Shown here piece by piece: positions 1,905 to 20,756 of a DNA stretch of 20,756 nt (the first letter of the stretch is position 1; each line of letters begins with the position of its first letter). A program made the translations under genes and the position numbers. Source of the stretch: a virus; IMG/VR virus record IMGVR_UViG_3300047353_000977, positions 1 to 20,756 of that record. One strand, 5' to 3'. The notes under the pieces are model-generated. The model worked only from the letters and a program-made list of their open reading frames with translations, had not been told where the DNA came from and searched no databases.

Positions 1905-2947
1905 TTGAATTAACCAAAGAACAAGAAGAGCAAATTTTAGAAAGTTTTCAGAAAGACCCCAACATCTTAAACATAACCCGTACTGTGTTTAAGGATGATA
2001 AACTTGATGGCAGGTCAAAAGAAGGTAGAGCAGTCACAAAATATCTTGCAGAAAACGGCTTCAAAACAAAAACCACAAAACGCAAAAAAGCAGAAGAAAT
2101 AGAGCTAAGTGAAGAGCAGTTAGATAAAATTGAAGAACTTAAAGGCGATGGTTTAAATACTTCTGAAATTGCAGATATTATTTTCGGCGGGAAAACCACA
2201 AGACTTTCAAAGCCCTGGAGAGTCATTAACGATATTGTAAACCAAGAAAGAGAAGAGGAAAAGGAAAGAGGTCAAGACGCCGCTGGCAACTACGTTCCCC
2301 CTCAAGCTATTTCTAGGATCATTAAAAAAATCAACGATTCTACAGGTTATGGATTAGAGGAAGATAAAATGTCGCGCAATCAGAAAGCTTGTTGTGACAA
2401 ACTGCGTATCAATCTTAGTAATTCACGATTTGTTGCTATCGTAAACAATTATACAAATGCCAGAGACAAGGAATTGTTTGAGCAGGAGTTTATCAGACTG
2501 ACTTGGGACAAGCCAGACCTTACTGCTGATGAACTTAACTTGTATATGAATGTTGCGAAGGAAATTATCAACCTTGAGTTAATTACAGGTCATTTGCAAA
2601 AACTCAACGATATGTTTGAAAGCGCTGATGACCAAGACGAAATGACGGTGCGTCTGGCTGAAATTATTAAGGCTAAAAGCTCCGAATATCATCAATGCGA
2701 AACTCGTATTGAAAATTTAACAAAGAAACTTCAAGGAGATCGTGGAGCGCGTTTGGCCAGTAAACAAAAAGATACGGCCTCGTTTCTCTCTATTGTACAA
2801 CTTTTTCAAGAAGAGGAGGAAAGACAAAATATGGTCCGAATTGTAGAAATGCAAAAACAAGTAATCAAAAAGGAGGCTGAAAAGCTAGAAGGCATGGCGG
2901 CTTGGAAAGCTCGCGTTCTAGGTATTGGAATTGACGATGTCTTATAA
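1901..2947 (+). CDS. Helix-turn-helix protein, candidate terminase small subunit
   Basis: This 348-residue, highly charged protein has two apparent DNA-binding helical modules near the N-terminus: residues about 4-55, starting LTKEQEEQIL, and about 69-95, with LSEEQLDKIEELKGDGLNT followed by SEIADIIFGG. The middle is helical, and residues about 235-330 are Glu/Lys-rich with coiled-coil character. It sits upstream of the large terminase, separated by a nuclease gene, in a chain of overlapping frames: ATGA overlap with the sigma-like gene, and its 3' end runs 11 nt into the next gene. Position and the HTH plus oligomerising layout fit a small terminase that recognises phage DNA. At 348 residues it is longer than most small terminases, so it may be another packaging or replication DNA-binding protein. 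Function is inferred. Confidence 0.55.
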   Translation: MIELTKEQEEQILESFQKDPNILNITRTVFKDDKLDGRSKEGRAVTKYLAENGFKTKTTKRKKAEEIELSEEQLDKIEELKGDGLNTSEIADIIFGGKTTRLSKPWRVINDIVNQEREEEKERGQDAAGNYVPPQAISRIIKKINDSTGYGLEEDKMSRNQKACCDKLRINLSNSRFVAIVNNYTNARDKELFEQEFIRLTWDKPDLTADELNLYMNVAKEIINLELITGHLQKLNDMFESADDQDEMTVRLAEIIKAKSSEYHQCETRIENLTKKLQGDRGARLASKQKDTASFLSIVQLFQEEEERQNMVRIVEMQKQVIKKEAEKLEGMAAWKARVLGIGIDDVL

Positions 2948-3854
2948 ATGCAAAGAATGTGGAGCAGAGTTTGACTCTGAAAAATCACTGCACAGTCATC
3001 TTAAAGCACATAAGATGTATGTGGCGGATTACTATGTAAAACATTACCCGCGTTTTAATAAACTCAACGGCAATCCACTGCCATTCAAGAAGAAGGAAGA
3101 ATATTTCGAAAACGATTTCATTAACCGTTCACAACTTGTAAAGTGGTGCGAGTCAGCACCAGATTCAGAGGTTAAGGATTACATTATCGAACTCGCCCAA
3201 AGGAGAATCAAACAAAAGAAATATACTCACGCGCCATTTTATCTAGAGTTATTAAAACGCCAACTACCCGATTTGGACGTATACAAGAAACACTTTGGGA
3301 CATACATAAAAGCTTGCGAAGCTATGGGCGCCAAGCCCATCTTTAACAAGGGTATGCCCAAAGAATTCAGCGAAAACGTCGATATGGAGGTTTTGATAGA
3401 TACTAGAGAGCAGCAACCATTGGAATTTCCTAAATCACAAATTTTAAAATTAGATTTTGGAGATTATACGTTGGGTGGAAATAATTTTTCAAATACTTTT
3501 GTAGATAGAAAAAGCGCTGGTGACTTCTTATCAACATTTGGCGGCCAAGTAGATAGATTTAGAAGAGAAATGAAAAGATGTGTGGAGCTTGACAGTTATA
3601 TGTATATCGTTGTCGAGAAGCCAATTAAAACTATAGAAAAAGAAGCTATATTTACTAGAGGCAGAAGGGCGCCTAAATTGGGCTGGGTATTCTCAAACTT
3701 AATTTCGATTCAACACGAATTTGCAGGAAACTGTCAATTTGTCTTTACAGATAACAGAAAGCACAGTGAAGAAATCATTCCAAAACTTTTGCTTTTGGGT
3801 GAGAAGCTGTGGAACGTAGATGTACAATACTTTTTAGATAAGGAGAGAGAATGA
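2937..3854 (+). CDS. C2H2 zinc finger fused to ERCC4/XPF-type nuclease
   Basis: I choose ATG 2937 over an in-frame TTG at 2925 because the zinc finger begins right after it; the product is 305 residues. The N-terminus is a canonical C2H2 finger: C5-x2-C8-x12-H21-x3-H25. The C-terminal half is an ERCC4/XPF nuclease domain with DTREQQP at 155-161, GDY at 175-177 and DRKSAGD at 190-196, a close variant of the ERK-x3-D signature; D155, D176, D190, K192 and D196 are candidate active-site residues. The family cuts branched or flapped DNA using metal ions. The gene overlaps the putative small terminase by 11 nt and the large terminase by 4 nt, so the nuclease is probably made with the packaging motor and may resolve branches before or during packaging. 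That role is inference; the domain call is strong. Confidence 0.85.
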   Translation: MSYKCKECGAEFDSEKSLHSHLKAHKMYVADYYVKHYPRFNKLNGNPLPFKKKEEYFENDFINRSQLVKWCESAPDSEVKDYIIELAQRRIKQKKYTHAPFYLELLKRQLPDLDVYKKHFGTYIKACEAMGAKPIFNKGMPKEFSENVDMEVLIDTREQQPLEFPKSQILKLDFGDYTLGGNNFSNTFVDRKSAGDFLSTFGGQVDRFRREMKRCVELDSYMYIVVEKPIKTIEKEAIFTRGRRAPKLGWVFSNLISIQHEFAGNCQFVFTDNRKHSEEIIPKLLLLGEKLWNVDVQYFLDKERE

Positions 3855-7712: not shown

Positions 7713-9227
7713 ATGCATAAATACACAACAAATTTTGATTTTGAAGTAACTGCTTGCCAAGAAATTGGGGGCATTGACATTTCAAAAGCTAATATACAGA
7801 ATTTAAGAGGTTTAATCCCAACATCTATTGATCTGGATAAAAATATAGACTTAATGGGTGTGGCATTTAATGCGGCAGTAGTCAATGAATTTAATAAAAA
7901 CGGAGATGGTATAAGTACGAAAACTGCTATCGACTCTGTTCAGCAGTTTGTCCACAAACCAACAAATATAGAACACGATAAAACAAAAATCGTAGGGCAT
8001 ATTGTTAATGCTGGATTTAGTGACTATTCGGATAGCACAATTCTTATAAATGTTGATGAGAATGAGCAAAATCCTTTTAATATAGCTTTAGGCGCAGTTG
8101 TTTATAAAACCATAGACAAGGACTTTTTTGAAACCCTAAGAAAAAGTACTGACCCCAAAAGCAAGATGCATCAAACCGTTTCCGCGAGTTGGGAAATTGG
8201 TTTTAGCGAATATCAAATCGCTGTTGGAAGCAAAAACCTAAAAGAAGCAGAAATTATTTCAGACCCGAAAAAGATCACAGAAATGAAAGGTATGCTGAGA
8301 GCTTTTGGGGGAAAAGGAGTAATGGATGATGGTACTCCAATTTATCGTTTAATTGTAGGAGATGTTTATCCTTTGGGCATTGGTTTTACTATGAAGCCAG
8401 CCGCAAATGTTAAAGGAATTATTAGTAAAGATTTCGAAGAAAAAGAAGAAGTTGAAAAATCTGATAAATCACAAGCTGCGCAATTAAAAAAAATATCTAA
8501 CAAAATTTCACAAAATTTAAAAAATACTGTAAACAATACTAAAATCATGGAATTAGAAACTCTACTATCAGAAATCAAAGCATCTCTTACTGAGAAGAAA
8601 TTCTCCGAAGAGGCTATCGCTGGCATGACTGCAACTTTTGCAGACGCCATTAAACAAAAAGATGAAGAGTACCAAGCTTCTCTTGAAGCTGCAGAAAAAG
8701 AGAAGGTCAAAATCGCTTCTGCGAATGAAGAACTTCAAGCTTCTGTAGAATCTATTAAGGAAGAACTTAAGTCTGCTCAAGAACACATTGCCGAGTTCGA
8801 AGCTGCGAAAATTGCTGAAGAAGCAGTTGCTCGTTTTAATACTCGTATGGAAGAAATCGATTCTCTTTACGATCTCGAAGAAAGCGATGCCGCTTTCATC
8901 GCTGAAAAAATTAAAGGTCTCGACGAAACCGAAGAATCTTTCGCTTCGTTTAAGAGTGAGCTTGAAGTTTTTTGGGCTTCTAAAAATAAAGAAGCTAAAG
9001 CTAAATTCGAAGAAGAGATTAAGGCTCGCGTTGATGCAGAAATCGAAAAACGCCTTACTTCTCAAGCTTCCGAAGAAACAGAAGAAGAAGTTGACGTTGA
9101 AGAAGCTCTTGCAAATGCAGAGCAAACCAACGAGGAAATTCCTAACAACAACGAAGCTCAAGCTTCTGCAAAAACTTTGAAGGATAGGTTTGCTGCTGCG
9201 TTTAGCCGCGAAAACATCCTTGGATAA
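7713..9227 (+). CDS. Prohead protease fused to scaffold protein
   Basis: The 504-residue frame has two unlike halves. Residues 1-245 resemble a prohead maturation serine protease: IEHDKTKIVGHI at 86-97 (H88 the likely catalytic His) and TVSASWEIGF at 155-164 (S157 or S159 the likely nucleophile). Residues 279-504 are Glu/Lys/Ala-rich, long-helical and coiled-coil-like, as expected of an internal scaffold. The protease would digest scaffold and trim capsid proteins before DNA filling. Within the gene, base and codon use changes near residue 279: the first part uses AGA for Arg and many A/T-ending codons, the second mostly CGT/CGC like the capsid gene. An in-frame ATG at 8547 with a promoter-like motif just upstream marks the same point, so a shorter scaffold may be made separately. 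The catalytic assignment is by pattern only. Confidence 0.8.
   Translation: MHKYTTNFDFEVTACQEIGGIDISKANIQNLRGLIPTSIDLDKNIDLMGVAFNAAVVNEFNKNGDGISTKTAIDSVQQFVHKPTNIEHDKTKIVGHIVNAGFSDYSDSTILINVDENEQNPFNIALGAVVYKTIDKDFFETLRKSTDPKSKMHQTVSASWEIGFSEYQIAVGSKNLKEAEIISDPKKITEMKGMLRAFGGKGVMDDGTPIYRLIVGDVYPLGIGFTMKPAANVKGIISKDFEEKEEVEKSDKSQAAQLKKISNKISQNLKNTVNNTKIMELETLLSEIKASLTEKKFSEEAIAGMTATFADAIKQKDEEYQASLEAAEKEKVKIASANEELQASVESIKEELKSAQEHIAEFEAAKIAEEAVARFNTRMEEIDSLYDLEESDAAFIAEKIKGLDETEESFASFKSELEVFWASKNKEAKAKFEEEIKARVDAEIEKRLTSQASEETEEEVDVEEALANAEQTNEEIPNNNEAQASAKTLKDRFAAAFSRENILG
8527..8538 (+). promoter_or_regulatory. Intragenic CTGTAAACAATA, candidate scaffold/capsid promoter
   Basis: This 12-mer inside the protease-scaffold gene ends 8 nt before the in-frame ATG at 8547. 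The identical 12-mer lies on the minus strand at 13699-13710, 9 nt before the putative tail-tube ATG, and both are followed by nearly the same TAAAAT stretch. Both genes encode proteins needed in many copies. The match is seen directly; promoter activity is inferred. Confidence 0.5.
8547..9227 (+). CDS. Possible nested scaffold protein (internal start)
   Basis: ATG 8547 is in frame with the protease-scaffold gene (residue 279) and would give a 226-residue scaffold alone. Support is threefold: the codon-use shift to the highly expressed pattern begins about here, the CTGTAAACAATA motif lies just upstream, and the protein changes from protease to Glu/Ala/Lys-rich helix at this point. Nested scaffold genes sharing the 3' end of a protease gene are well known, for example lambda C and Nu3. 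The product is rich in Glu and has heptad-like stretches, as expected of a core that is removed during maturation. There is no clear Shine-Dalgarno. The alternative is that only the fusion is made and the protease cuts it. Confidence 0.5.
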   Translation: MELETLLSEIKASLTEKKFSEEAIAGMTATFADAIKQKDEEYQASLEAAEKEKVKIASANEELQASVESIKEELKSAQEHIAEFEAAKIAEEAVARFNTRMEEIDSLYDLEESDAAFIAEKIKGLDETEESFASFKSELEVFWASKNKEAKAKFEEEIKARVDAEIEKRLTSQASEETEEEVDVEEALANAEQTNEEIPNNNEAQASAKTLKDRFAAAFSRENILG

Positions 9228-12597: not shown

Positions 12598-13689
12598 TTA
12601 GCTGTTCGCTCCAGAAAAGAAGATATTGTTGTCTGCATCACTTGGGCCACCAATTTGGGTGGAGAATGTCAAATCAACGGTCTTATTCGATCCAATCGAG
12701 GAACTGAAGGATTCAGATTCAAGTTTTGCATTCTTAAGTTTGTACTTAGTAATCTCAGTATTTTCTCCAGCATTTTTGAATGTTAAAGTAATATCAATAC
12801 CAGCAGAGCTATCAATAGTATCCGCAAGATTTTCAGCAGTAATTTCATTTACGATAGCAGAGACACTAAGTGTAGCATTCACTGGGAAGTCAACTGTTCT
12901 AGCGAATGGGAAGCGAGAACCAAGTCTCTCAAGTGGGCTTCTGCTCATAGACAGGGAAAGTGAAGCGCTTTGAACGTGAGCGCCAGCGCTACCATCAGAA
13001 ATATCAACAATTGCATCACTACCAGCATTACCAAAGGACACTGTAACATCACCTGGGCGGAGCGCTGAAACAGTACTTGTTCCAGTTGTTGCTGCAGAAA
13101 GCGTTAAATCTCCAACAACTTGTGAACCATCTGATTGGCTGATAGACGGGAGTTCGATACCGCTGTAACCAACAGAGCTTCCGCTTGCATCTGTAACAGC
13201 ATTAATATTTGCAGCTTCAAATGAAACAGAGACGGTTGGGATAGATCCAACAGAAGCATCGACTGTATAGTCTGTAAGGTAAGCGTTACCAATGCCAATT
13301 ACAGGCATAGTACCAGCTTCAGTGGTTTGACTAATAGCGTCAATACCTTCATCAGCAGTAACAATAAATAAATTCTTACCAGAGCTTGCGGTCATGTGAC
13401 CAGATGCAAAACCAACGTTAAAGTCGGAATTTGCGAAACCAAGAGCTTCTTCATTGAAGCCGTCTCCTAGGTAGTAAGAAGCATCAAAAGATACTGTTGG
13501 AGCTTCAAGAACAATAGAATCAATTCTAGCCAAAGAGCCGTACTGATTAATGTCTTGACGGGAAATGTTAAAAGAGTAGTTCGCAGACTGGACTCTTTGA
13601 AGTTGTTTATGATTTCCTGATGCTGTTGAATCAGCTTCTTCGGACACATACAACGCTTCGGATTGATAAATTACTCGATTTCTAGCCAT
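12598..13689 (-). CDS. Putative major tail tube protein
   Basis: The 363-residue protein, starting MARNRVIYQSEALYVSEEAD, is Ser/Thr/Gly/Ala/Val-rich with regular beta-strand alternation and almost no long charged helices, the composition of a tube protein with added Ig-like surface domains. It ends its operon just before a strong terminator, and its promoter-like motif is the same 12-mer as before the internal scaffold start, pointing to high expression. The tail tube is built from stacked rings of this protein around the tape measure. Residues about 1-60 contain QRVQSANYSFNISRQDINQY, a segment I associate with tail tube proteins. The minus orientation is opposite to the head genes. Sheath or other tail structural protein is the alternative. 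Confidence 0.65.
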   Translation of the reverse strand: MARNRVIYQSEALYVSEEADSTASGNHKQLQRVQSANYSFNISRQDINQYGSLARIDSIVLEAPTVSFDASYYLGDGFNEEALGFANSDFNVGFASGHMTASSGKNLFIVTADEGIDAISQTTEAGTMPVIGIGNAYLTDYTVDASVGSIPTVSVSFEAANINAVTDASGSSVGYSGIELPSISQSDGSQVVGDLTLSAATTGTSTVSALRPGDVTVSFGNAGSDAIVDISDGSAGAHVQSASLSLSMSRSPLERLGSRFPFARTVDFPVNATLSVSAIVNEITAENLADTIDSSAGIDITLTFKNAGENTEITKYKLKNAKLESESFSSSIGSNKTVDLTFSTQIGGPSDADNNIFFSGANS

Positions 13690-13698
13690 AATATTTTA

Positions 13699-13710
13699 TA
13701 TTGTTTACAG
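13699..13710 (-). promoter_or_regulatory. CTGTAAACAATA, candidate promoter for tail tube gene
   Basis: On the minus strand, CTGTAAACAATA follows an A run and ends 9 nt before ATG 13689. It is identical to the intragenic 12-mer at 8527-8538, and the following bases also match apart from one indel. Confidence 0.5.
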
Positions 13711-13731
13711 TTTTTTTTGTTAAATGTGAAA

Positions 13732-14547
13732 TTATTGTCTTGGGAATCTGTACTGAGAAACATCAAAGTCGATAAATCCTACTTTCAAATCTCCAATTGA
13801 TTGTTTTTGCGCTCTATCAGAAAGTTTAGAAACAACAACATCTTCAATATACATAGGTAATTCGTCACCCTTGTAAGTGCTTGATAAACCTGTATAGTTA
13901 AAAGATCCATCTTTCAGGTCGCCGTATTCCGTAGATGGGTGGCCGCTAAATGGGATCATTGTTATTTCCTTGTGTCTAGCATCGGCAAAAATTGATAAGA
14001 CTCCATCAAGGCCAAAAGTATCTTCTGCTAATACAACAGCCTTAATTGTCATTTTTGTTTCATCCTCTCCTCCAAAAGCAAGAGGGACATTTGTAACAGT
14101 TTCACTATTTATAAAGATAGCTGGAACAGCTTGGTCATATGGTTCAATTCCGCTTTCTGAATCGCCGTATCTGCTATTTTGTACGAATTTACTTTCTAAA
14201 ATTAAATCCTCTTCTGTTTCGTTTGTGAGATAAACATTAAAATCTTTTACGGCAAAGGTGCCAGTGATTGTCTCGCTTGTTCCAAAATTGCCGCCAGTTT
14301 CAATAATTCTCCCATTCTCAAAATCAAAAATTATATCGTTCGCCCTGCCACTACCCATAAAAGATGAAGGTATAGTCGCTTCAGAGATAGTGGAATCATT
14401 AACCCATTGTTTGTAGGGGCTTGCATAAACTTTATAACCATCTGGCAATCTTGAATCATCAAAGTAATGTAGAGTCCCTGTTTTGTTTGAAAAAGCTTCT
14501 CCTTTTGTCAACAAGTGATTGTCAAACCACAAAAGGAAGCTAGTCAT
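13732..14547 (-). CDS. Uncharacterised virion protein of the neck-tail block
   Basis: From ATG 14547 the product is 271 residues and begins MTSFLLWFDNHLLTKGEAFS. It is rich in Gly, Ser, Thr, Asp and aromatics with beta-type alternation and no signal peptide; I recognise no family. It lies between two neck-like genes upstream and the tube gene, so a tail-terminator or tail-associated structural role is likely. The start is uncertain: the only good ribosome binding site, AAGGAG, lies 34 nt upstream of this ATG, correctly spaced for an in-frame ATT at 14574 that would add nine residues (IKPQYQHKV, initiated with Met) and would overlap the stop of a 25-codon ORF. Either start keeps the same frame. 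Confidence 0.7.
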   Translation of the reverse strand: MTSFLLWFDNHLLTKGEAFSNKTGTLHYFDDSRLPDGYKVYASPYKQWVNDSTISEATIPSSFMGSGRANDIIFDFENGRIIETGGNFGTSETITGTFAVKDFNVYLTNETEEDLILESKFVQNSRYGDSESGIEPYDQAVPAIFINSETVTNVPLAFGGEDETKMTIKAVVLAEDTFGLDGVLSIFADARHKEITMIPFSGHPSTEYGDLKDGSFNYTGLSSTYKGDELPMYIEDVVVSKLSDRAQKQSIGDLKVGFIDFDVSQYRFPRQ

Positions 14548-14569
14548 TACTTTGTGCTGATATTGTGGT

Positions 14570-14647
14570 TTAATAAGAGTCTCCTTTCTTTAAATTTTCA
14601 ATCGCCAACAAGGGCTGTAGGTTGGAGTTTTGGGAAATTCGCTTCAT
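14570..14647 (-). CDS. Possible 25-residue leader ORF
   Basis: ATG 14645-14647 opens a 25-codon frame (MKRISQNSNLQPLLAIENLK, then KGDSY) ending at TAA 14570-14572. It starts 8 nt after a GTGTAAAT motif, in the 116-nt gap between two minus-strand genes. Its last codons contain the AAGGAG that would serve the next gene, and its stop shares one T with the ATT candidate start of that gene. Such a layout suits translational coupling or a leader peptide. It is short and could be chance. Confidence 0.35.
   Translation of the reverse strand: MKRISQNSNLQPLLAIENLKKGDSY
14581..14586 (-). promoter_or_regulatory. Shine-Dalgarno AAGGAG deciding the next start
   Basis: AAGGAG on the minus strand is 6 nt from an in-frame ATT (14574) and 33 nt from the first ATG (14547). 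The ORF stays open between them. Most genes in this window lack such a site, so its presence here is informative about the start. Confidence 0.5.
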
Positions 14648-14655
14648 TAAAATAT

Positions 14656-14663
14656 ATTTACAC
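14656..14663 (-). promoter_or_regulatory. GTGTAAAT motif, candidate promoter
   Basis: GTGTAAAT begins directly after the stop codon of the 197-residue neck-like gene and ends 8 nt before the 25-codon ORF. It belongs to the recurring motif set and would drive the unknown virion gene downstream. Confidence 0.45.
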
Positions 14664-15257
14664 TTATAGTTCTAGGTTGGAAAATTCTTTTTCGTACTTC
14701 TTTATGAAAGCTGTAATGTATTGAGTATTCTTAAATCTTGACTTTTTTCTAACTTTGCGAGGGGATTGTACACCTAAACCAGATCTACTGTTTTGGGTTG
14801 ATTTTAATAAATAGTATCCAAGTCCAGATATTCCTGTTTCGATACCCTTTGCCCAGCTTCTGCCACTTGCCCAAGGCATGGGGGTGACAGCGAAAACATC
14901 CCTTGGCTCTGGGAGCATTACAGAAAATTCAATCTCTCTTTTTGTCACTTTTATAAGTTTAAAGTCAGTTCTGAGTAAAACCTCTTCAATTGGGTCAATT
15001 GGATCGTATCCTTCTTCAAAACCAATAAAAGAAAAAAGATTGCCACTGCCGCCGCCAAGTGTGCCGCTAATATTTTTTGCGTTTATTCCTATCTCAATTT
15101 CTTTTGTGACGGGGTGGTTTAAGAATTCAGAAATCATTTGGTTTTTCTTTTTCTGAAAAGCCGTACGGAAGATCTTCCTAACCTGCTCCTTGGCAATGTT
15201 AGGTATTTGATTTTCTAAAGTTGTTTGGATTTCTGTGTAGTATTCGTAATTACTCAT
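14664..15257 (-). CDS. Probable neck or tail-completion protein
   Basis: The 197-residue protein starts MSNYEYYTEIQTTLENQIPN with a helical N-terminus (1-50), then a beta-rich middle containing the turn GTLGGGSGN, the aromatic segment MPWASGRSWAKGIETGISGL and a very basic C-terminal third (VRKKSRFKNTQ region). The layout, with a helix followed by a beta domain and a basic tail, is like proteins that complete the tail end or neck. I cannot name the family with certainty. Its ATG overlaps the end of the upstream 152-residue gene by 8 nt, so the two are translationally coupled and probably act at the same head-tail junction. Confidence 0.6.
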   Translation of the reverse strand: MSNYEYYTEIQTTLENQIPNIAKEQVRKIFRTAFQKKKNQMISEFLNHPVTKEIEIGINAKNISGTLGGGSGNLFSFIGFEEGYDPIDPIEEVLLRTDFKLIKVTKREIEFSVMLPEPRDVFAVTPMPWASGRSWAKGIETGISGLGYYLLKSTQNSRSGLGVQSPRKVRKKSRFKNTQYITAFIKKYEKEFSNLEL

Positions 15258-15708
15258 CTAGGGGTTTTAGAAAGAAGTGATAATATTGTGGGCCAAGCAT
15301 TCCAGTTGCACTTCCCTTGCTTGAAATTTCATATTTGCGCCCTTCAAATTCACACCTTTTTGCCTCTTTGAGAATTTCAAATCCACTTGGATCAACTGTA
15401 ATTCTTACAGATCCGTTAATTAAATCAATATCTGGTTGAGAATTTATTTCGCTGTCGGATAAAGTCTCGTCTTTAGCATTTATATATTTAATTCTAGCTT
15501 TAATGCTATGTGAAACAACTGTTCTAGAAACTGAGGTGTTTCCTGTGTTTGTTTTGCCATAAACACCATTATATGTAGAACTCGCTGCGATTAAAACTTT
15601 TTCTCCTTCTTCGTAAACAGTTATTGTTCTAGCAAAGGTTTTGTGTACATTGTCTATGATTCCTTGGAGTTGAGTTTTTAGGGTTTCTGATACATATGAA
15701 GTCGCCAT
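15250..15708 (-). CDS. Probable head-tail joining (neck) protein
   Basis: The 152-residue protein begins MATSYVSETLKTQLQGIIDN, a helical start, followed by beta-rich sequence. It ends with CEFEGRKYEISSKGSATG and GPQYYHFFLKPL, a short beta C-terminus resembling head-closure or stopper proteins, which are about this size. It is the first gene of the minus-strand block, with a GTGTAAAA motif 6 nt upstream of the ATG and back-to-back with the plus-strand motif for the next unit. Function is from context and shape, not from a diagnostic motif. Confidence 0.6.
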   Translation of the reverse strand: MATSYVSETLKTQLQGIIDNVHKTFARTITVYEEGEKVLIAASSTYNGVYGKTNTGNTSVSRTVVSHSIKARIKYINAKDETLSDSEINSQPDIDLINGSVRITVDPSGFEILKEAKRCEFEGRKYEISSKGSATGMLGPQYYHFFLKPLDE

Positions 15709-17772: not shown

Positions 17773-20756
17773 ATGGCAAGAGCAAAAGTAGGAGTAGAGT
17801 TCACCCCAGTTGACAGTAGGAAGGTAGAATCAGCATTAGCTAGGATACAAGCCCAAGCTAAAGGCGTTAATTTCGGCAGAGGCGCCGAATCAATTAATAA
17901 ACTCTCCCGTCCGTTGGGCAAGATTACTGGACAGGCCACTGAGTTCCAGAAATCGTTAGAAGCTTCTAATGCTCGTGTTTTAGCTTTCGGTGCGTCTGTC
18001 GTAGTCATTAATAAACTTTCTCAAGCTTTTGGCGCACTTGTATCTAACACAATTAAAGTGGAAGCGACTTTTGCAAAAATTAACACAATTCTTGGTGGAA
18101 CAAGAAAGGAATTAGAAGCTTTTGGTAATGGAATTTTTAAGGTCGCCCAAAATACAGCGACATCTTTTGATCAAGTAGCCGAAGGTGCGTTAGAGTTAGC
18201 TCGCCAAGGTCTTAGTGTAGAGCAAACCCTTTCTCGTGTTGAAACAGCGTTGAAACTAGTTCGGGTAGCTGGCATTGATTCTCAGCAAGCTGTGGCAGGT
18301 CTTACTGCCGCGATTAAAGGCTTTGAGGGTGCGGGACTAACAGTAGCCCAAATCGGAGACAAACTTGCGGAAGTCGATACAAAATTCGCTGTGTCTACTG
18401 AAGATTTAATTAACGGTCTTGAGCGAGCGTCTGCATCCGCTCGTGTAGCAGGTGTTTCATTTGATGAGCTTTTGGGTATTATAACCACAGTTCAAGAAAG
18501 AACTCAGCGAGGTGGCGCGGTTATTGGTAACGCCTTTAAAACTATTTTTGCAAGAATGGGGAGAACGGACACACTCGCCGCTCTTCAGGATATAGGAATT
18601 TCTGTTTTAGATGCTGAAGGAAATGTAAGGGACGCAATTCCTTTATTTAAAGAGTTGGCGACAGAGCTTGATAAGATGGGATTAAAAAGCATCCAAGCTG
18701 GTGATATTATTCAAAAAGTTGCTGGAGTTAGGCAGCGAGATATTTTAATTAGTTTAGTTGAAGACTTGAACTCTGAGCAAAGCCAGTTCGCAAAATCACT
18801 AGGTGTTTCCGCTAGTGCGACTGGGGCATTGGATCAAAAAAATGCGAAATTGAATGACACCCTAGAAGCTTTAATTAATAATTTAACAACGGGTGGACAA
18901 AAGTTAGCGTCTGTTATCGGAGAAATTGGTTTTACGGACGCCGCGCAAGATATTTTAAAAGCTTTTTCTTCTGTTGTCACTGGAATTACGGATTTGCTTC
19001 AAGGGGATTCAATAGGAAGTAAATTCGCCCAAGGAATTGTGAAGGGTATAGGCGGAGTTTTAACTGGCCCAGGGCTTGCTTTAATTAGTGCGATTTTTAT
19101 TAAGCTTTTTGTTGATTTAGCTAAGTTTGGAGCAACCTCACTTAAACAAATTTTAGGCATAAATAAAGCGGCAGCGCAACAAGCCACCCTTCAACAATCT
19201 GTTTTACAAACACTCCTTCAAAATGAAAACATCCAAAGAGAAATTTTAGCTCTTGAAGGTAACAAGGTTGCTCAAGAGCAATTATTGTTAAAAATTTACA
19301 ACCAACAAGCTGCCGCTTTAGCTAGGGTTCAGAAGGCTGCTACTACAGTAACCCCTGGGCTTTTTGGCGCAGGTCTGCGTGGCGGCGAAGGAGGAGTAAA
19401 ACCAAAAGGCAAAGCATCTAGTGGTTATATTGCCGCCGAAGCTCGTGATGTTTCTCGTGGTGTTGGTGGTGCGCCAGCAAGCGCTAAAGTTGTTTCAATT
19501 CCTAATTTTGCTTTTGGCGGCGGTAAGCGTGGCACAATGGTTGCTAACAGTAGCGAGTATTTTGTCCCTAATTATGCTGGTGGTGGTGACGCTATATTTA
19601 ATCAGAATATGGTTAAGTCTATGGGTCTTCCTTCTGGCGCAAAAAAGATAAATGCGGCTGGTGGGTATGTTCCAAATTTTGCAAAACCTACAGTTGTACA
19701 GGATTCAAGATTTGCTTTAATTACTCCAAACAAAACATCAGGTACAATTGCTACTGGGAAGTCAAGCACTGGAAAAAGTTATAGCTTTCCAATTTTTGGA
19801 TATAACGATGCAAAATTAAAAGGTACGGAAACTCAAGACTTTATAAAACGGGTTGGAGACTTTGGTGTTTCATTAGCTAATAAAGAATCAAAGATAATGA
19901 CTGGCGGCAGACCATCTTCATCAAAAATTAATAAACTAGGAAACGCTGGATCAATATCTTCTTTAGCTGGTGTTATTTATGAAGCCGCTATAAGTTCTAT
20001 ATTAAAAAGTCCAGAATATGATTTAACTCAAACGGCTACATTTGATTTTGTTGGCGCTAAAGCTAGAAATGATATAGCAAAAATGTATCCTGGGCTTTCT
20101 CCTGACGCTAGATTTATAGAGGCTAAAATTTCTGGCAATACCAGAATATATAACAACATGGCCAATAAGATGGAAGGGTTTGGCGCTGGCGCAAAAACAC
20201 TTCCAAGAAAAGCCTTAGGCCAATTGCAGAAAGCTAGGGTGGCTGGACCAAGTAGAAAAGCTGTTGAAAAAGAATTCAAAGGAGCAGCTTCTGGTTACAT
20301 CCCTAACTTCGCTGGAGGCTTAGAGGGCGCGATTATGCGCGAACAGGCCGCAGGTCTTCCGCTTAATCAAATCAGAATTAATCAAAACGGAAAACTCCGC
20401 AACGCTCAAAACCCAATGGGTCTTGCTGTTACCAACACAAGAGACGAGCCAACTGGCGCAATTCCAAACTTTAATCAAGGTGGTATGATTAATATGCCCA
20501 TGTCTAAAAATTTGGAAAAAATGGCAGAAAGAATGATTAAAGCCAACAAAAAACAGACGGCGTCGATGGAAGATTTTTCGGGTCGCTTGGTGACCACCTC
20601 TATAGCTTTAAGTTTTTTAAGTTCTGCTTTTAGTGGGGCTGGGAGTGGTATAGGTAAATTTGTCAGTGAGTTAGCTTTAGCGGGATCAATGTTATCTGGT
20701 TTGGCTATGTTAAAGGGGCCATTGAACAACCTTAGTACAAAGTTAGTAAATTTTGG
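17773..20756 (+). CDS. Tape-measure protein with modular C-terminal insert (partial)
   Basis: The frame is open from ATG 17773 to the window edge, giving 994 codons so far. Residues about 97-406 match the TP901-type tape-measure core: EATFAKINTILGG, then SFDQVAEGALELARQGLS, and TTVQERTQRGGAVIGNAFKT. Residues about 421-457 are hydrophobic and could cross a membrane; about 464-522 form a Gln-rich coiled coil. From 550 the protein changes: Gly-rich linkers carry I/V-P-N-F/Y-A motifs at 576-580, 598-602, 633-637, 843-847 and 897-900 (last Ala replaced by Asn). The segment 638-836 between two of them has E737, D758 and E783-A-K785 in a PD-(D/E)xK-like order. A hydrophobic stretch at about 943-990 follows. 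Tape measures set tail length and are ejected ahead of the DNA. The family call is strong; the nuclease reading is inference. Confidence 0.88.
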   Translation, partial: MARAKVGVEFTPVDSRKVESALARIQAQAKGVNFGRGAESINKLSRPLGKITGQATEFQKSLEASNARVLAFGASVVVINKLSQAFGALVSNTIKVEATFAKINTILGGTRKELEAFGNGIFKVAQNTATSFDQVAEGALELARQGLSVEQTLSRVETALKLVRVAGIDSQQAVAGLTAAIKGFEGAGLTVAQIGDKLAEVDTKFAVSTEDLINGLERASASARVAGVSFDELLGIITTVQERTQRGGAVIGNAFKTIFARMGRTDTLAALQDIGISVLDAEGNVRDAIPLFKELATELDKMGLKSIQAGDIIQKVAGVRQRDILISLVEDLNSEQSQFAKSLGVSASATGALDQKNAKLNDTLEALINNLTTGGQKLASVIGEIGFTDAAQDILKAFSSVVTGITDLLQGDSIGSKFAQGIVKGIGGVLTGPGLALISAIFIKLFVDLAKFGATSLKQILGINKAAAQQATLQQSVLQTLLQNENIQREILALEGNKVAQEQLLLKIYNQQAAALARVQKAATTVTPGLFGAGLRGGEGGVKPKGKASSGYIAAEARDVSRGVGGAPASAKVVSIPNFAFGGGKRGTMVANSSEYFVPNYAGGGDAIFNQNMVKSMGLPSGAKKINAAGGYVPNFAKPTVVQDSRFALITPNKTSGTIATGKSSTGKSYSFPIFGYNDAKLKGTETQDFIKRVGDFGVSLANKESKIMTGGRPSSSKINKLGNAGSISSLAGVIYEAAISSILKSPEYDLTQTATFDFVGAKARNDIAKMYPGLSPDARFIEAKISGNTRIYNNMANKMEGFGAGAKTLPRKALGQLQKARVAGPSRKAVEKEFKGAASGYIPNFAGGLEGAIMREQAAGLPLNQIRINQNGKLRNAQNPMGLAVTNTRDEPTGAIPNFNQGGMINMPMSKNLEKMAERMIKANKKQTASMEDFSGRLVTTSIALSFLSSAFSGAGSGIGKFVSELALAGSMLSGLAMLKGPLNNLSTKLVNF

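Follow-up and report, generated by a model that had tools for sequence, protein, structure and literature searches.

We analysed a 20,756-nucleotide stretch of viral DNA (positions 1 to 20,756 of IMG/VR virus record IMGVR_UViG_3300047353_000977; hereafter the window), whose last open reading frame (ORF) encodes a predicted tape measure protein (TMP). Behind its conserved core, this protein carries a cassette set between copies of a short peptide motif that is specific to one group of tape measures. Among related phages whole cassettes are swapped while the motifs stay in place; the cassettes bear the marks of purifying selection, the commonest class keeps a set of conserved catalytic-type residues, and some cassettes in sister phages are recognisable enzymes. 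We put at roughly two in three the probability that tape measures in this phage group serve as modular effector carriers, the cargo of which would travel in the tail and reach the host.

The ORF matches the Pfam family PF10145 (PhageMin_Tail, E = 1.6e-28) and PHROG tape measure families (best phrog_4211, 2.3e-45), and on these N-terminal domain matches its product is assigned as a tape measure protein. The contig ends before the 3' end of the gene, and more cassettes or motifs may lie past position 20756; relatives such as loci L036 and L002 have no motif after the last one seen here (M5). The features of the ORF are as follows.

17773-20754, plus strand: tape measure protein ORF, 994 residues, 3' end open at the contig end, with PF10145 and PHROG matches
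18139-18681, plus strand: PhageMin_Tail domain, the conserved tape-measure core, residues 123-303
19420-19431, plus strand: M0, decayed motif SGYI, residues 550-553; intact as GYIPNF or GFIPNF in relatives, e.g. L066, L060 and L320
19498-19512, plus strand: M1, IPNFA, residues 576-580
19564-19578, plus strand: M2, VPNYA in a conserved SEYxVPNYA context, residues 598-602
19663-19683, plus strand: M3, GYVPNFA, residues 631-637, left border of the swapped cassette
19684-20286, plus strand: polymorphic cassette, PD-(D/E)XK-like nuclease candidate, residues 638-838, the single long cassette of the window
20293-20313, plus strand: M4, GYIPNFA, residues 841-847, right border of the swapped cassette
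20317-20451, plus strand: conserved block REQAAGLP..QIRIN..NPMGLAVTNTRDEP, residues 849-893, which follows the last cassette in this family
20461-20475, plus strand: M5, IPNFN, residues 897-901

Translation of the ORF confirms all five motifs that an initial annotation of the window had placed there (IPNFA at residue 576, VPNYA at 598, VPNFA at 633, IPNFA at 843 and IPNFN at 897). Composition alone predicts 0.011 occurrences of [IV]PN[FY] in the whole ORF, and 20,000 shuffles of residues 541-910 never produced more than two. Across all six frames of the window there is a single further [IV]PN[FY], a chance antisense match. The same annotation had read SGYI at residue 550 as a decayed copy, and relatives indeed carry an intact motif at this place (GRGAGGYIPNFNAVMGYGSEQADINKGVGGAPSSAKPVTIPNF where the window has SGYI). 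Because SGYI aligns with intact GYIPNF or GFIPNF in these relatives, this stretch of the window has six ancestral motif sites.

A homology search with the TMP, in which the motif was not used as a query, returned 50 IMG/VR loci. M1, M2 and M3 sit at near-constant residues (about 578, 600 and 635) in about 35 relatives of close or middling similarity; M4 and M5 come next, spaced 54-62 residues. Homologues with non-conserved motif positions, the outcome that the annotation had set against its own reading, did not occur among those examined. Across the TMP relatives the Pro and Asn of M1 to M4 are invariant, and in the motif codons positions 1 and 2 are nearly invariant and position 3 is variable. 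The varying third positions, together with the invariant Pro and Asn, argue that selection on the motif acts at the level of the peptide; a DNA-level recombination signal as the cause of its conservation is ruled out by the freely varying third codon positions.

GYIPNFA, GFIPNFA and GYVPNFA were also scanned for in 2.9 million viral contigs; these loci were selected by the motif itself, and the counts are lower bounds. Among the matches listed, frames with at least two motifs made up 198 of 206 for GYIPNFA, 184 of 199 for GFIPNFA and 119 of 138 for GYVPNFA (86-96%), the remainder being mostly short or unrelated frames. All 35 of the divergent N-termini tested from motif-bearing ORFs match PHROG tape measures; they can be aligned, and all but one are 37-47% identical to the first. 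When five larger phage contigs (59-113 kb) were searched over their full length, each gave at most two exact motif matches, clustered on one strand at the TMP. Multi-motif frames, tape-measure N-termini and confinement to the TMP together point to G[YF][IV]PNFA as the signature of one tape-measure clade. That similar motifs exist in uncultured phages, as the annotation had suggested, is borne out: they are common in both the homology search and the motif scans. We found no homologues of the cassette region in cultured phages by tblastn with two different queries. In GTDB genomes, high-scoring relatives covering the motif region were confined to two binned metagenome contigs, one Flavobacteriaceae (L355) and one Verrucomicrobiales (L356), and these bins are too weak a basis for assigning a host. 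A search of the open-access literature for the peptide IPNFA, which does not cover papers outside that collection, returned nothing relevant. The motif may be a protease release site, a chaperone- or tube-binding site, or a folding boundary. The motif does not occur in frame in any other ORF of the window, which makes cleavage by the capsid protease less probable and led us to reject a protease site shared with the capsid proteins.

The swapping is clearest between M3 and M4. Compared with close-group relatives that have a different cassette, the window's tape measure is 72-88% identical in the N-terminal part and 77-86% in the linker, falls to 23-37% in the M3-M4 cassette, and returns to 71-87% in the M4-M5 block; the exception is L036, a close relative whose cassette is 71% identical. 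The M3-M4 stretch is replaced wholesale and motif positions are kept. This collapse of identity between conserved flanks supports the earlier proposal of modular cassettes between near-identical linkers, and breakpoints in the DNA support its companion, that the motifs are recombination points for swapping. In the pair L030/L033 identity is 100% in the N-terminal part, 99% in the linker, 27% in the cassette, 100% in the block and 99% in the C-terminal part. Counted from the start of IPNF, their DNA similarity extends 14 nucleotides into M3; at M4 it restarts 13 nucleotides ahead of IPNF, and the DNA flanks are 97-99% identical over 1.8 kb upstream and 6.1 kb downstream of the cassette. Between the window and L005, blastn similarity ends at 19681, at M3; on the M4 side, homology picks up again from the Ala-Ser just before GYIPNFA. 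Cassette architecture and swapping are thus evident at the level of sequence. A large survey of phage protein mosaicism found tape measures to be mosaic by sequence and could confirm no recent genuine case (PMC10684548); L030/L033 appears to be one.

Incongruence also runs the other way. The synonymous divergence (dS) is 1.68 in the core versus 0.20 in the cassette for L016/L031, and 1.16 versus 0.18 for L020/L021, which shows that cassettes are also transferred horizontally between phages with divergent cores. Homologous cassette pairs have ratios of nonsynonymous to synonymous divergence (dN/dS) of 0.03-0.38, mostly above the core values yet well below 1. Such ratios indicate purifying selection on the cassettes and, because they are so far below 1, domains that are functional.

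The block at residues 849-893, which had been described as conserved from the window alone, is real: it keeps 71-87% identity to relatives whose neighbouring cassette is at 23-37% (L036 aside). It stands after the last cassette in 112 of the 114 ORFs that have it, and may be part of the same apparatus. The region after M5 (20476-20754 in the window; the C-terminal parts of L002-L039) is strongly variable, with 16-55% identity to the window, and forms a second polymorphic zone of the tape measure among close relatives.

For a view of cassette diversity in sister phages, we counted segments of at least 90 residues between motifs in 294 frames and grouped them by single-linkage BLAST clustering. 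Among the matches listed there are at least 404 distinct inter-motif segments in 97 clusters, and at least 81 cassette orders among 210 long ORFs. A tape measure holds from one to about ten cassettes, and in close relatives of the window a cassette is about 200-300 residues long. The secure enzyme assignments are in L325 and L146. In L325 (7575-8981, plus strand) an entire CCA tRNA nucleotidyltransferase, HD-like part included, stands between two GYVPNF motifs (NF008137, 1.2e-41; phrog_2244, 8.1e-58; PolyA_pol, 9.4e-15); this 469-residue segment shares one 3548-residue TMP frame with a PhageMin_Tail match (8e-24). L146 (8760-9344, minus strand) has an SNase cassette between motifs (PF00565, 1.9e-9, above the Pfam cut-off), and SNase-type cassettes between IPNF motifs recur in L232 (9909-10439, minus strand) and L251 (763-1293, minus strand; below the cut-off). 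Weaker cassette matches are to GHKL ATPase, GNAT, ParB_N and AAA families. The GHKL ATPase-like domain lies in a single 570-residue cassette (L195, 5327-7036, plus strand; L183, 5042-6751, minus strand), farther along which a HEAAH metalloprotease-like motif can be made out by eye. When 106 representative cassettes of the other clusters were compared with Pfam, PHROGs, NCBIfam and PADLOC, few were recognised, and several cassettes that look kinase-like, ADP-ribosyltransferase-like or HAD-like by eye had no Pfam support. On the minus strand of L352 (12862 bases), one 2253-residue frame has eleven motifs; the motif pair SKGHIPNYGL / NSGFVPNYSA is present twice in it, which suggests an internal duplication of the cassette row.

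The window's own cassette falls in the largest of these clusters, with 176 of the 404 segments, in which residues follow the order G..FE ... D ... [DE]xK ... [KQ]. The order E ... D ... [DE]xK is the signature of PD-(D/E)XK nucleases. In the window the candidate catalytic residues are the following.

19981-19983, plus strand: motif I glutamate (Glu), residue 101 of alignment A2
20044-20046, plus strand: motif II aspartate (Asp), residue 122 of alignment A2
20119-20127, plus strand: [DE]xK motif, Glu-Ala-Lys, residues 147-149 of alignment A2

The series E..D..[DE]xK is complete in 144 of 152 non-redundant cassettes of the class, and E, D and K are the sole invariant columns of alignment A3, most members of which are 15-28% identical to the first. 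An hhalign comparison with Mrr_cat brings E, D and K into register at a score of 14.7, against a column-shuffled maximum of 11.4 and 12.1 for Mrr-PDDEXK_1. AlphaFold2 (AF2) models of two cassettes of this class reach predicted local distance difference test (pLDDT) values of 89 and 82, and the model of the window cassette is a confident alpha/beta domain rather than a coiled coil. A profile search of solved structures gave lectins as its best hit (E = 0.02), which we judged to be chance. We consider it quite probable that the class is a PD-(D/E)XK-like nuclease. With the members of that superfamily compared here (Mrr_cat, Cap4 and PDDEXK_1) it shares the E ... D ... [DE]xK order followed by K or Q; it differs in lacking a significant family or fold match and in a predicted order of strands and helices that is not the textbook one.

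How might such a protein act as a carrier? In the literature, tape measures figure as cargo that is expelled from the lumen of the tail, and an injection particle is described that packages a TMP-like effector inside it (PMC13277306). In our model, the internal cassettes lie between a ruler domain, N-terminal and conserved, and a C-terminal region that varies. Gly-rich linkers of the form [AS][SG]G[YF][IV]PNFA enclose each cassette, and each encodes a separate, often enzyme-like domain; phages exchange cassettes by recombination at or inside the linkers. Since the tail lumen is occupied by the tape measure, which leaves it on ejection, the cargo would be expected to ride in the tail, threaded extended or unfolded in the tube as part of the tape measure; domains of the size of the 469-residue CCA segment would presumably be carried in this state too. 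It would be ejected into the cell before or together with the DNA, fold in the cytoplasm, become active there as an enzyme, and act to the phage's benefit as infection begins, with host nucleic acids, competing DNA or defences among its possible targets. We also lean, less firmly, towards a broader statement about the whole clade: that its tape measure is a multi-slot injection magazine from which unrelated enzymes are delivered pre-made into the host, before phage gene expression, as an exchangeable first-strike or counter-defence arsenal. Its slots would hold nuclease-like, SNase, CCA tRNA nucleotidyltransferase and GHKL domains and, by eye, kinase-like and ADP-ribosyltransferase-like ones.

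Several results weigh against the proposal of an effector carrier. The hhalign probability for Mrr_cat is just 1%, and a Pfam search with the window's cassette class gave no convincing match. Neither of the two AF2 models found a fold match in PDB or BFVD (Foldseek, VIA), so that the nuclease assignment depends on the sequence signature. Most of the 97 clusters belong to no recognisable family. Finally, the presence of the cassettes in the virion and their injection are deduced from gene sequences.

The cassettes could instead be inert structural spacers that set tail length or fill the lumen and are free to drift; the motifs would then be linkers, either flexible or chaperone-binding. They do sit in a length-determining protein, they differ in length, and most are without a known domain; however, they include an entire CCA-adding enzyme and an SNase domain, the commonest class is invariant only at catalytic-type residues, the window cassette is modelled as a confident alpha/beta domain and not a coiled coil, and segments that are under purifying selection and are replaced as discrete alleles are not drifting. 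We regard such spacers as unlikely. More doubtful still is the idea that the nuclease-like cassettes are selfish, homing-type elements that spread by cutting other alleles, any phenotype being incidental. The prevalence of that class (176 of 404 segments) and the horizontal movement of cassettes would suit it, but near relatives show allelic replacement rather than filled versus empty sites, the replaced tract ends at the motif without long co-conversion, and many cassettes are not nuclease-like.

Just as improbable, in our estimate, is a polymorphic toxin-immunity system in which each cassette is paired with its cognate immunity gene and serves competition among phages or lysogens. A constant carrier with swappable effector domains does resemble polymorphic toxins (PMC3482391), and in an injection system one of the TMP-like effectors belongs to a toxin-antitoxin pair (PMC13277306). 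Yet L030 and L033 differ in cassette between flanks that are 97-99% identical (1.8 kb before, 6.1 kb after), and because these flanks stay unchanged while the cassettes differ, the pair has no adjacent cassette-specific gene; nor is a CCA enzyme an obvious toxin. Least probable of all, we think, is that the cassettes serve the virion's own business, such as processing of the incoming DNA or penetration of the envelope, and not the host. The known tape-measure enzyme motifs, as represented by TM4 in the citing source, target peptidoglycan (Piuri and Hatfull 2006, cited in PMC13277306), and the incoming genome could be the substrate of a nuclease, but types as diverse as a tRNA nucleotidyltransferase and GHKL and GNAT candidates are hard to fit to a single entry step.

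Tape measures are usually viewed as rulers. If those of this clade are effector carriers as well, the short motif becomes a search key for hidden injected phage effectors, and the cassettes would be candidate counter-defence or host-takeover enzymes that act before the phage genome is transcribed. Work on the loading of proteins into tails, and on their ejection, could use the motif borders as natural slots.

Elsewhere in the window, four minus-strand genes (12598-15708) lie inside an otherwise plus-strand structural module, and none of them matches a PHROG family. The 504-residue protein at 7713-9227 has only a weak PHROG match; by eye it resembles a prohead protease joined to a coiled coil of scaffold type. 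At 2925-3854 a C2H2 zinc finger is followed, again by eye, by an ERCC4/XPF-type nuclease motif (DTREQQPLEF ... VDRKS), and a weak sigma-factor match at 1233-1904 (PHROG, 4.7e-4) marks a possible phage-encoded sigma factor.

To our knowledge, cassettes that lie inside a phage tape measure, bracketed by peptides and stacked in multiples, occur in none of the three systems to which we compare them: TM4-type tape measures, polymorphic toxins and the Sle1/Tme effectors. TM4-type mycobacteriophage tape measures (Piuri and Hatfull 2006, cited in PMC13277306) likewise have an enzyme function embedded in the tape measure; as described in the citing source, it is a single envelope-acting peptidoglycan-hydrolase motif, whereas the cassettes here are swappable slots with putative nucleic-acid-type enzymes. 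Polymorphic toxin systems, including MuF-linked phage toxins (Zhang et al. 2012, PMC3482391), have a constant delivery module and variable effector domains exchanged by recombination, and we find the same pairing of a constant carrier with an exchangeable candidate effector domain. The phage carrier, however, is a tape measure and not MuF, and its variable domains, of which there may be several, are internal. A neighbouring immunity gene is absent in L030/L033 over the 1.8 kb upstream and 6.1 kb downstream compared, and there is no C-terminal toxin: the cassettes are internal, followed by the block and a long C-terminal region. The Sle1/Tme effectors of actinobacterial contractile injection systems (PMC13277306) share with our model a tape-measure-related carrier with interchangeable functional domains, packaged in a tail-like particle, a likeness that is drawn on our side from genes. 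Their domains are C-terminal and belong to bacterial injection systems without a capsid. The window, an IMG/VR virus record, does not fit a bacterial injection system devoid of phage head genes, since a terminase is present (large subunit match, 1.6e-25, beside a weak portal match, 0.0055). Unlike the Sle1/Tme domains, the phage cassettes are internal, stand between peptide motifs, and lie on a phage contig with a terminase gene.
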